Source: Hoeflea sp. (GTDB lineage Bacteria > Pseudomonadota > Alphaproteobacteria > Rhizobiales > Rhizobiaceae). Taken from it: 64,000 bases of DNA. The notes beneath the pieces are model-generated. The model made no database searches. It was given only the letters and a program-made list of their open reading frames with translations, and was not told the DNA's origin. Positions 56,293 to 60,526 of this stretch are shown piece by piece; within the stretch, counting starts at the first letter, position 1, and the number at the start of each line of letters is the position of its first letter. Location: positions 434,001 through 498,000 of the forward strand of contig JAHRFE010000028.1 of NCBI GenBank assembly GCA_019084245.1, in the 5' to 3' direction. The translations under genes and the position numbers were made by a program.

Positions 56293-56558
56293 GCATATCC
56301 GTCTGACGGGCAAGTACCCGGACATGCCGGCCGCTGTCAAGGCGGTCGCCCTGACGGAAAAGCCGGCATTGTATCGCCGCAAATCTCCGGTCCGGATCGG
56401 GCGGCACTATAGCCAAGACGCTTCTCTTGGCAACTGCTATCTGGCGGTTTGGAGAGACAATGTTCGGTTTGAGGGACTGGGGATCAGATCGCATGCGCAA
56501 TGAAGGCCAGGACGACGCCTTCCGGGCTCCATTTCGCCATAACCGGTTCTTGCCCTGC

Positions 56559-56652
56559 TGCATGATTCCCCAGGTCGAAATTGATCCGGGGAATCATGCA
56601 GTCGTTCAAAGTGCTCCTGCATGATTCCTTAAATCGGTATCGATTCAAGGAA
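56559..56652. repeat. pair of palindromic elements, rhizobial type
   Basis: The first palindrome has perfect 13-base arms TGCATGATTCCCC and GGGGAATCATGCA (56559-56600). The second has arms TTCCTTAAATCG and CGATTCAAGGAA with one mismatch around GTAT (56625-56652). Both begin with the same TGCATGATTCC word, so they look like two diverged copies of one element. The rest of the gap 56293-56872 has no supported gene. Confidence 0.65.
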
Positions 56653-56872: not shown

Positions 56873-57190
56873 ATGCGGTTTGTGGCACGGGTGGTGAGCA
56901 TGATTTTTCTGGTGTTCGCGGTGATCGCCGGGCTGGTCGACGCCATTCAATCCGTCGCGGCAGGGCAGCCGGTCCTGACCCCGCTGATGGACGCCTGGTC
57001 GAGCAACAGTCCCGAGACGCTGGCGCTGTTTCAGGGTCTGTTTGCCAGCTATCTGCCGGCCTGGGTCTGGGATCCGGGCGCCCTGTGGGTCCTGGCGCAG
57101 CCGGCCTTTGCCGTCTTCCTGGTCTTGTCGCTGATCTTCTATCTGGCAGGGCATCGCCGGACCAGACCGGCAGGCCGGTTCGCGGCCTGA
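56873..57190 (+). CDS. small membrane protein, two helices
   Basis: The 105-residue protein has a first helix at about residues 5-30 (VVSMIFLVFAVIAGLVDAI) and a second near residues 74-93 (QPAFAVFLVLSLIFYLAG), with a basic C-terminus (HRRTRPAGRF). I recognise the general pattern of a conserved rhizobial membrane protein but no function. It is upstream of the MsrA-like gene on the same strand, with 89 bases between them. Confidence 0.7.
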   Translation: MRFVARVVSMIFLVFAVIAGLVDAIQSVAAGQPVLTPLMDAWSSNSPETLALFQGLFASYLPAWVWDPGALWVLAQPAFAVFLVLSLIFYLAGHRRTRPAGRFAA

Positions 57191-57279: not shown

Positions 57280-57933
57280 ATGTTTCTGGTCGAGATGTTT
57301 CAACGCAAGACCACCATGCCGACCGCAGCAGAAGCGCTTGCGGGCCGCGCCGATCCGGTCGAAACCGCTTCCACCCATTTCGTCAATGGCCGGCCGCTGA
57401 AGGGGCCTTTCCCGCAAGGGTCGGAGATCGCCTGTTTCGCCATGGGGCGGTTCTCGGCTGCCGAGAGACTGTTCTGGCCGCTCCACGGGGTCCATGTCAC
57501 CGCAGCCGGCTATGCTGGCGGCTTCACCCCCAATCCGACCTATCAGGAACTGATGACAAGCCTCACAGGGCACGCCCAGACAGTCATGGTGGTCTTCGAC
57601 CCGGACGTGATCACTTACCGCGCCTTGCTCAGGATCTTCTTTGAAGGCCATGACCCGACCCAGGCGATGCGGCAGGGCAATGACATCGGCACTTTCTTCC
57701 GCTCGGCGATCTTCACGACGAGTCCCTTGCAGCTCGAACAGGCCGGAGCGGCCCGCCAGACCTATCAGGAAGCCCTGACGGCAGCCGGGCACGGCGGACG
57801 GATTGTCACCGCGATCGCACCGCTCACCGAGTTCCATTATGCGGAGACCAACCACCAGCAGCATGCAGCCAGAAATCCCGGCGCCCGAACCGGCCTGAAG
57901 GGGACCGGGGTTGGGTTGCCCGACCTGGCGTAA
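57280..57933 (+). CDS. MsrA-like protein lacking catalytic and resolving cysteines
   Basis: The fold is clearly peptide-methionine (S)-sulfoxide reductase: YAGGFTPNPTYQELMTSLTG, then HDPTQAMRQGNDIGTFFRS and HYAETNHQQHAARNP. The active-site motif GCFWGAE reads GRFSAAE, so the nucleophilic cysteine is arginine (residue 57) and the tryptophan is serine. The C-terminal GYCGL..GTGVSCP region reads GARTGLKGTGVGLP, so the resolving cysteines are lost as well. The only cysteine left is residue 52. The 217-residue frame is intact and AGAAGGAG precedes the ATG, so it is probably expressed as a pseudoenzyme or binding protein. Confidence 0.88.
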   Translation: MFLVEMFQRKTTMPTAAEALAGRADPVETASTHFVNGRPLKGPFPQGSEIACFAMGRFSAAERLFWPLHGVHVTAAGYAGGFTPNPTYQELMTSLTGHAQTVMVVFDPDVITYRALLRIFFEGHDPTQAMRQGNDIGTFFRSAIFTTSPLQLEQAGAARQTYQEALTAAGHGGRIVTAIAPLTEFHYAETNHQQHAARNPGARTGLKGTGVGLPDLA

Positions 57934-58139: not shown

Positions 58140-59132
58140 ATGAAACGCACGCTTTTGAGCTTCCTCGCTATGGCCGCCATGTCGGCGACCGCCATGGCCG
58201 CCGACATCAAGCCGGCAATCATCTATGACCTCGGCGGCAAGTTCGACAAATCCTTCAACGAGGCTGCCTTCAACGGCGCCGAGAAGTTCAAGACCGAGAC
58301 CGGGATCGAGTACCGCGATTTCGAAATCGCCAATGACGCCCAGCGCGAGCAGGCGCTGCGCCGCTTCGCCAAGGACGGCAACAACCCGATCGTCATGGCC
58401 GGTTTCTCCTGGGCCTCGGCGCTCGAGAAGATCGCCGCAGAATATCCGGACACCAATTTCGCCATCATCGACATGGTGGTCGACAAGCCCAACGTGCGGT
58501 CCGTGGTCTACAAGGAACAGGAAGGCTCCTATCTGGTCGGCGTGATGGCCGCCAAGGCGTCGCAGACCGGTACAGTGAGCTTCATCGGCGGCATGGACAT
58601 CCCGCTGATCCGCAAGTTCGCCTGCGGCTACAAGGGCGGCGTGCTGGCCACCAATCCCGACGCCAAGGTGCTTGAAGCCATGACCGGCACGACGCCGGAC
58701 GCGTGGAACGACCCGGTCAAGGGCGGTGAGATCACCAAGTCGCAGATCGACCAGGGCTCCGACGTGATCTATGCGGCCGCCGGCGGCACCGGCATCGGCG
58801 TGCTGCAGACAGCGGCCGACGCCGGCAAGCTCGGCATCGGCGTCGATTCCAACCAGAACGGCCTGCAGCCGGGCAAGGTGCTGACCTCGATGGTCAAGCG
58901 CGTCGATGTGGCCGTCTACAATGCCTTCATGGACGCCAAGAATGACACGTTCTCCTACGGCTTCAGCTCGCTGGGCCTCGCCGAGGACGGCGTCGACTAC
59001 GCCATGGACGACAACAATGCGCCGCTGGTCAATGACGAGATGAAGGCCGCCGTGGAAGCCGCCAAGGCCGACATCATCGCCGGCAAGATCACCGTGCACG
59101 ACTACATGTCGGACAACGCCTGCCCCTATTGA
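58140..59132 (+). CDS. BMP family ABC transporter substrate-binding protein
   Basis: The 330-residue protein has a signal peptide (LLSFLAMAAMSATAMA) and the BMP/PnrA fold: LGGKFDKSFNEAAFNG at the N-terminus, FIGGMDIPLIRKF and DVIYAAAGGTGIGVL in the second half, and GVDSNQNGL. Many members bind purine nucleosides, some other ligands. No lipobox is seen, so it is probably a soluble periplasmic form. The permease and ATPase partners are not in the neighbourhood. Confidence 0.9.
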   Translation: MKRTLLSFLAMAAMSATAMAADIKPAIIYDLGGKFDKSFNEAAFNGAEKFKTETGIEYRDFEIANDAQREQALRRFAKDGNNPIVMAGFSWASALEKIAAEYPDTNFAIIDMVVDKPNVRSVVYKEQEGSYLVGVMAAKASQTGTVSFIGGMDIPLIRKFACGYKGGVLATNPDAKVLEAMTGTTPDAWNDPVKGGEITKSQIDQGSDVIYAAAGGTGIGVLQTAADAGKLGIGVDSNQNGLQPGKVLTSMVKRVDVAVYNAFMDAKNDTFSYGFSSLGLAEDGVDYAMDDNNAPLVNDEMKAAVEAAKADIIAGKITVHDYMSDNACPY

Positions 59133-60103: not shown

Positions 60104-60526
60104 ATGAAAAAGACACTTCTCGCAGCTTCGGCCAGCTTCGCCATCGGCCTGAGCGGGTCCTACGCGTTAGCCGCAAGCCATGCCGGCATGGGCGTGATGG
60201 GCGAAGATCAGGACGTATCAGGTGGTACGGTCACCGCCTCCTCGGTCACGGCGCCCGCCAATGGCTGGCTCGTGGTCCACCGCACCGACGATGAGATGAA
60301 GCCCGGTCCGGTGGTTGGCTATGCGCCGCTCAAGGCCGGTGAGAACATGGACGCGGCTGCCATCCTGACCGAGCCGGTCGCAAGCGGCGACAAGCTGATG
60401 CTGATGCTTCATGGCGAGGAAGGCGGCACGCGGACGGGTATTTTCGAATACACGCTCGGCGCCACGGAAGACGGCCCGGTCCGCATGGACGGCAAGCTGG
60501 TCATGGTCGTCATCACGGCGAAATAG
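60104..60526 (+). CDS. exported DUF7282-type protein
   Basis: The 140-residue protein has a signal peptide (MKKTLLAASASFAIGLSGSY, cut near ALAASHA). The mature part carries the DUF7282 pattern: VTAPANGWLVVHRTDDEMKPG, then GYAPLKAGENMD and MLMLHGEEGGTRTGIFEY. The function is unknown; the domain is secreted or periplasmic. AAGGAG lies 7 bases before the ATG, which fixes the start; an earlier in-frame start at 60020 has none. Confidence 0.83.
   Translation: MKKTLLAASASFAIGLSGSYALAASHAGMGVMGEDQDVSGGTVTASSVTAPANGWLVVHRTDDEMKPGPVVGYAPLKAGENMDAAAILTEPVASGDKLMLMLHGEEGGTRTGIFEYTLGATEDGPVRMDGKLVMVVITAK

Follow-up and report, generated by a model that had tools for sequence, protein, structure and literature searches.

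Gene content and gene order of the locus

The window is a stretch of 64,000 nucleotides of Hoeflea sp. DNA that carries, on its forward strand, a gene for a 217-aa long-form MsrA protein of the PMSR family (Table 1). The ORF starts with ATG, and an AAGGAG ends 6 nt before the start codon, which bears out the intact frame and ribosome site described in the initial annotation. The gene directly upstream encodes a 105-aa protein, for which no Pfam match was found, and the gene directly downstream a Bmp/PnrA-like protein. Farther downstream lies a gene for a DUF7282 protein (PF23951, 72 bits), which accompanies the locus in 7/13 long-form contexts of the genus, some of them short. Between tRNA-Ser and the 105-aa gene, a palindrome, TGCATGATTCC...GGAATCATGCA, is accompanied by a third, diverged half; this is the single copy of the exact two-arm pattern in the whole genome.

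Table 1. Features of the msrA locus and replaced residues of the window protein (residue numbers on the left of the arrow follow E. coli MsrA)
Feature	Position in the window	Strand	Basis
MsrA pseudoenzyme gene, PMSR family, long form, 217 aa	57280..57933	+	ORF, profiles, residue table, codon ML, model
Cys51 (nucleophile) → Arg57, codon CGG	57448..57450	+	alignment
Trp53 (methyl pocket) → Ser59	57454..57456	+	alignment
Glu94 (general acid) → Gln100	57577..57579	+	alignment
Tyr134 → Phe140	57697..57699	+	alignment
Cys198 (recycling) → Thr204	57889..57891	+	alignment
Cys206 (recycling) → Leu213	57916..57918	+	alignment
105-aa probable membrane protein gene	56873..57190	+	no Pfam family; membrane nature judged by eye
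Bmp/PnrA-like ABC transporter substrate-binding protein gene	58140..59132	+	conserved neighbour
DUF7282 protein gene	60107..60526		PF23951
Palindrome with third, diverged half	56558..56643		

The gene order is conserved. Long-form msrA lies between the 105-aa gene and the Bmp/PnrA-like gene in 18/18 contexts, pseudoenzyme and active-type alike, and 17 of these contexts also have tRNA-Ser(GGA), the exception being a 5.1-kb contig. Because the neighbours are the same in all 18 contexts, the window gene is an orthologue of active-type msrA that has been disarmed in place; an extra paralogue is ruled out by the active-type msrA neighbours in 18/18 loci. The 105-aa gene was seen near long-form msrA in 47/67 loci scanned across the order, including 22/30 family loci and 18/30 order loci (one at a distance of 1.35 kb; some loci are short). 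The remaining seven are the 7/7 loci of the G381 genus, of which one (G381) holds a pseudoenzyme. The 105-aa gene thus has the look of a partner that is conserved alongside long MsrA.

The msrA gene itself can be missing from this arrangement. No msrA was found between the adjoining neighbour genes in four genomes of the genus (G009, G010, G014 and G017) and in G147. Since four genomes of the genus have deleted it, this long-form gene is dispensable and not essential. The neighbour-gene tree, whose backbone is weak, implies more than one deletion. Two incomplete genomes, G013 (75% complete) and G266 (85%), yielded no close orthologue of the Bmp gene and are not counted either way. G147, which is without the long form, has at G147:C15:144517-145035 an MsrA-family match with one internal TGA.

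Active-site residues and predicted fold

By profile, the window protein belongs among MsrA enzymes. It scores 152.7 bits with PF01625 (cut-off 23.7) and 155.1 bits with NCBIfam TIGR00401 (cut-off 108.1), above the curated cut-off in each case, and its alignment with E. coli MsrA covers almost the whole length at about 50% identity. Mechanistic residues are numbered after E. coli MsrA, their replacements and Cys52 after the window protein, and the window protein was compared with that enzyme and 53 active-type homologues. In the published mechanism, Cys51 is the nucleophile, Cys198 and Cys206 serve recycling, and Tyr82, Glu94 and Tyr134 surround the sulfoxide oxygen (PMC6316033, PMC6210582; both cited from excerpts). 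The Trp of MsrA forms the methyl pocket (PMC6210582, excerpt).

The initial annotation had described a full-length MsrA whose nucleophile is changed from Cys to Arg, and the profiles and the alignment agree: Arg57 stands in place of the nucleophilic Cys of GCFW. The resolving Cys positions, also given there as changed, are Thr204 and Leu213. The replacement of Trp by Ser holds as well (Ser59), but the description of this residue as adjacent is not strictly right, since it lies two positions after the lost Cys. Missing from that list were Glu94 to Gln and Tyr134 to Phe, so that Tyr82 is the one member of the sulfoxide-binding trio that is kept. Further changes in the alignment are Gly54 to Ala60 and Cys86 to Met92. 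Phe52 and Asp129, which we take to be among the mechanistic MsrA residues, are retained together with Tyr82. With Cys51, both recycling Cys, Trp53, Glu94 and Tyr134 all changed, the view that this protein cannot be a normal reductase is supported; the known MsrA reaction should be impossible because the residues required by the published mechanism have been replaced. The same genome holds two other MsrA copies, both with GCFW, and three MsrB-family genes, and repair need therefore not depend on the window gene.

The AlphaFold2 model of the window protein has a mean pLDDT of 94.2. Its input alignment comprised 58 related sequences, of which 43 rows were active-type MsrA; it supersedes a model from a smaller input of 12 rows (pLDDT 76.3). 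The closest PDB match is E. coli MsrA 1ff3, with a TM score of 0.94 (query) and 0.97 (target), and the window protein is thus predicted to retain the MsrA fold. In the model, the newly gained basic residue, Arg57, stands where the catalytic helix (H58-62) begins, and the sole Cys of the protein, Cys52, sits in a predicted strand (49-55) ahead of that helix.

Nucleophile-less MsrA in the genus

The named genomes closest to that of the window belong to Hoeflea, which NCBI taxonomy assigns to Rhizobiaceae, Hyphomicrobiales. The genus was sampled with 18 genomes including that of the window, some of them MAGs. The long form is present in 13 of them, and the nucleophile is absent in 12 of these 13, with Arg at position 51 in nine (GRF[ST]xAE) and Lys in three (GKFWGAE). 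The search of relatives proposed in the initial annotation finds the same Arg in nine genomes, that of the window among them. One of the 13 genomes, G005, has an active-type long form; G012 (9% contamination) has an additional active-type copy, L022, which is placed outside the genus in the tree.

Other catalytic residues are affected too. Among the 12 nucleophile-less members, Cys198 is absent in all and Cys206 in 11. Trp53 is lost in 9/9 Arg members; Tyr134 is Phe in 9/9 Arg and 2/3 Lys members, and Glu94 is Gln in 6/9 Arg and 3/3 Lys members. Frames are full-length and open in all 15 pseudoenzyme genes (the 12 of the genus and three of other Rhizobiaceae), and protein length is 216-219 aa in 11/12 members of the genus.

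The codons at position 51 are CGG in 8/9 and CGT in 1/9 Arg members, AAG for Lys, AAT for Asn and CCG for Pro. Apart from CGT, each of these codons is separated from a Cys codon by at least two base changes, and most of the replacements are therefore not recent single hits. A sequencing error at Arg57 is unlikely, since Arg is found in eight further assemblies of the genus and Lys in three.

That the protein is still a working MsrA through Cys52 can hardly be the case. Cys52 does lie five residues before the lost site, as had been noted, but it is found in 5/12 pseudoenzymes of the genus, zero Cys remain in another 5/12 (6/15 overall), and its predicted place is in the strand before the catalytic helix. 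The earlier suggestion that this Cys is either a relic or a new site fits neither way.

A changed enzyme, with new chemistry built on Lys or Arg (or Pro or Asn) at the catalytic position, would accommodate the basic residue found at position 51 in 12/12 members of the genus. It is nonetheless very unlikely, as four different residues (Arg, Lys, Pro and Asn) occupy the site, the general acid and the tyrosines vary among members, and no cofactor motif was seen with Pfam and NCBIfam.

The Cys206 position is Phe in 12/15 pseudoenzymes of both origins (L003-L016, L054-L057), and Leu in the window protein. L064, an active-type homologue with one recycling Cys, likewise has Phe at position 206, so this residue may reflect tail packing and be no novelty.

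A second origin and wider sampling

Beyond the genus, genomes were scanned with exact DNA patterns, from which members altered elsewhere in the motif escape. The family scan covered 394 genomes with a motif whose position-51 codon does not start with T. It matched 19 genomes, of which nine were confirmed as MsrA by translation: six of the genus (eight of the genus being in the sample), G381 with Pro, and G050 and G211 with Asn. The other ten matches arose by chance and are not MsrA by translation. A Cys motif, in a slightly stricter pattern, is present in 165 of the same 394 genomes. The order scan, which allowed any codon, matched 63 of 397 genomes, with a Cys codon in 62 and the window genome as the exception.

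Class and phylum scans demanded a Trp codon, so that Arg-type members would escape there: 18 of 367 genomes matched in the class, all 18 with a Cys codon, and 60 of 378 in the phylum, 59 with a Cys codon. The sixtieth phylum match (G1204, Ser codon) arose by chance within a frame of 31 aa. There is overlap among the order, class and phylum samples. Matches with a Cys codon were counted as MsrA, and tblastn confirmed 30/30 fetched order loci and 30/30 fetched family loci. Since the pattern used to pick the 30 family loci (L120-L149) included a Cys codon, the 53/53 Cys of the residue table is partly a product of selection.

The residue tree was built from 68 of 81 long-form proteins with active-site columns masked; 13 near-copies or cut rows were omitted. 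Arg and Lys forms make one clade (99/86) whose sister is the active-type protein of G005 (99/98). The Pro and Asn forms are nested in active-type Rhizobiaceae (99/93 for the 23-row clade), and may or may not share one loss (58/91). They lack both recycling Cys and keep Trp53, Glu94 and Tyr134. The same three cysteines have thus been lost a second, separate time in other Rhizobiaceae. In L056 (G050), residues 58-61 belong to a GNFWC motif with Asn for the catalytic Cys and a Cys three residues on, an arrangement found in 1/15 pseudoenzymes.

Selection on the probable pseudoenzyme genes

Selection was estimated with a codon ML model (own script, not PAML) on 24 of the 81 long-form sequences and 216 codons, using a tree taken from the 68-protein tree with weak forks resolved by hand. 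The dN/dS ratio (w) is 0.121 in the Arg crown, 0.097 in the Lys clade, 0.166 in the Pro/Asn forms and 0.088 on active-type branches; on the stems of the Hoeflea dead clades it is 0.28. Compared with the full model (lnL -10179.48), fixing w at 1 costs 319.5 lnL units for Arg (lnL -10498.96), 129.1 for Lys (-10308.60) and 81.6 for Pro/Asn (-10261.07). Stems evolved faster than active-type branches (equality rejected, 2dlnL 10.5, p 0.001), and constraint in the Arg and Lys crowns is slightly below that of the active type (2dlnL 6.8, 2 df, p 0.03); both equal-w fits come from a run in which some fixed-w fits were unconverged, and the fixed-w values were refitted. For the stems, w = 1 is weakly rejected (2dlnL 5.0, p 0.025).

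Pairwise NG86 estimates for 11 pairs gave 0.12-0.23 in seven pseudoenzyme pairs of the genus, 0.32 in the Asn pair and 0.06, 0.11 and 0.30 in three active-type pairs. For the pseudoenzymes these ratios exceed the ML ratios, and absolute dN/dS values accordingly depend on the method.

Active-type MsrA has 93 conserved columns, of which 63 are unchanged in 9/9 Arg rows and 15 are absent from 9/9. Counted by the majority of rows, Arg forms have lost 6/9 mechanistic positions versus 13/84 other conserved columns (Fisher p = 0.002), and Lys forms 5/9 versus 10/84 (p 0.005). For the Pro/Asn forms the enrichment is not significant (3/9 mechanistic versus 10/84 other columns, p 0.11). The active-type sister L013 has lost 0/9 mechanistic positions and 2/84 other columns.

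These data bear directly on the idea of a decaying relic, in which a redundant gene lost catalysis and is decaying slowly before deletion. The in-place deletions, found in G147 as well as in four genomes of the genus, speak for it, as does the raised stem w, for which equality with active-type branches is rejected. Set against this are the 15/15 open, full-length frames, crown w values of 0.10-0.17 with w = 1 strongly rejected, the near-constant length in 11/12 members of the genus and the concentration of Arg and Lys losses on mechanistic residues. Neither sign of a pseudogene, a disrupted frame or a dN/dS near 1, was found in any of the 15 genes, and decay is unlikely. The early decay considered in the initial annotation finds no support in the open frames and the dN/dS of 0.10-0.12 in the 12 genus members, and the Ka/Ks comparison proposed there favours a pseudoenzyme (Arg-clade dN/dS 0.12).

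In the genus, a burst of change when catalysis was lost appears to have been followed by purifying selection. MsrA-type redox chemistry should be absent from the window protein, and constraint at the protein level is present. The combination expected of a pseudoenzyme is found: the catalytic residue is lost, the fold is predicted to be kept, the loss is common to relatives and purifying selection acts.

Possible function

The window protein is probably a pseudoenzyme derived from a long-form Rhizobiaceae MsrA, disarmed in place, that now works as a binding protein and uses no redox chemistry. On this proposal, the preserved MsrA cleft and surface would serve binding, and the genome's two other MsrA copies, which keep Cys, would take care of catalytic repair. 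The ligand proposed for these pseudoenzymes is a guess. The Lys, Pro and Asn forms would most likely grip exposed stretches of peptide or methionine sulfoxide. With Arg57, Ser59 and Phe140, the pocket of the Arg form has been rebuilt; it is probably unsuited to methionine sulfoxide and would recognise another ligand or a fixed partner.

The Cys51Ser (C51S) MsrA of Neisseria was crystallised with substrate (3bqf; PMC6210582, excerpt), and since the Trp pocket is intact in the Pro, Asn and Lys forms, methionine sulfoxide could still be held by these. The Arg form, in which Trp and Tyr134 are gone and a basic residue has been gained, is likelier to have another ligand or partner. Judged from these residues, the Lys, Pro and Asn forms could plausibly bind methionine sulfoxide, while for the Arg form this is doubtful. 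The methionine-sulfoxide sensor suggested in the initial annotation would accordingly suit the Lys, Pro and Asn forms better than the Arg form.

A more specific role, that of a holdase or reader of oxidation damage whose cleft binds methionine sulfoxide in unfolded proteins much as the C51S mutant does, can be entertained tentatively. Phe52, Trp53 and Asp129 are kept in the Lys, Pro and Asn forms, and Glu94 and Tyr134 in the Pro and Asn forms, which together with the crystallised Neisseria mutant (3bqf; PMC6210582, excerpt) would suit such a role. The Arg form fits it poorly, having lost Trp53 and Tyr134 in 9/9 members and Glu94 in 6/9, and the lost Trp is the residue of the methyl pocket (PMC6210582, excerpt). 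A chaperone-like role for the window protein itself is possible.

A further variant, in which the cleft has been rebuilt round the fixed Arg or Lys as a ligand or partner site, would make the protein a non-redox accessory of the 105-aa protein and/or the Bmp-type transporter, with disarmament reached at least twice in Rhizobiaceae; it is rather unlikely.

The presence of MsrA is taken to mark oxidative repair, and TIGR00401 names the window protein an MsrA enzyme; as the hit is above the cut-off, genomes would be annotated with a reductase unable to use the known mechanism. Selection has kept a non-catalytic MsrA in many Hoeflea species, which suggests, from the sequences compared, a non-enzyme protein. 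One locus presents a series of states: the active Cys form, Pro or Asn forms that keep the pocket, a Lys form that keeps Trp, an Arg form whose pocket has been rebuilt, and deletion of the gene. A natural series at one conserved locus makes a selectable MsrA role apart from reduction directly testable.

Comparison with known systems

Pseudoenzymes are known as a kind, and none was found for the MsrA family in the literature searched. That search, whose coverage left out most subscription journals, found no MsrA pseudoenzyme, inactive homologue or Hoeflea MsrA. For MsrA, GCFWG is called conserved in all organisms studied (PMC6316033, a review cited from an excerpt).

The closest known system is long-form MsrA itself (E. 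coli, 1ff3; PF01625, TIGR00401), with which the window protein shares about 50% identity and the predicted fold, as well as the locus of active-type Rhizobiaceae msrA. It differs from these enzymes in lacking the nucleophile, both recycling Cys, Trp53, Glu94 and Tyr134.

An archaeal MsrA with ubiquitin-like modification activity shows that MsrA may have a second function (PMC5587910, excerpt). This function needs the catalytic Cys and Glu, and the window protein has neither, so it is rejected as a model here (PMC5587910, excerpt).

Among ciliates, MsrB-like proteins have the catalytic Cys replaced, by Thr in Euplotes and by Ser in others, and so resemble the window protein (PMC5371997, excerpt). 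They are, however, MsrB proteins of eukaryotes, reported in that excerpt as sequences, those of the other ciliates being of unknown function (PMC5371997). The structure of MsrB is unlike that of MsrA (PMC6316033, excerpt).

E. coli CnoX, an SXXC chaperedoxin, offers a parallel of another kind: a thiol-redox fold in which the catalytic Cys was lost in one lineage and another role is served, while orthologues elsewhere retain that Cys (PMC6282202, excerpt). CnoX differs in its thioredoxin and TPR fold and its measured holdase activity (PMC6282202, excerpt). The SXXC forms of CnoX also keep another conserved Cys, which the MsrA pseudoenzymes do not (PMC6282202, excerpt). CnoX is not a relative, but it is the closest precedent for the way in which a protein of this sort may work.
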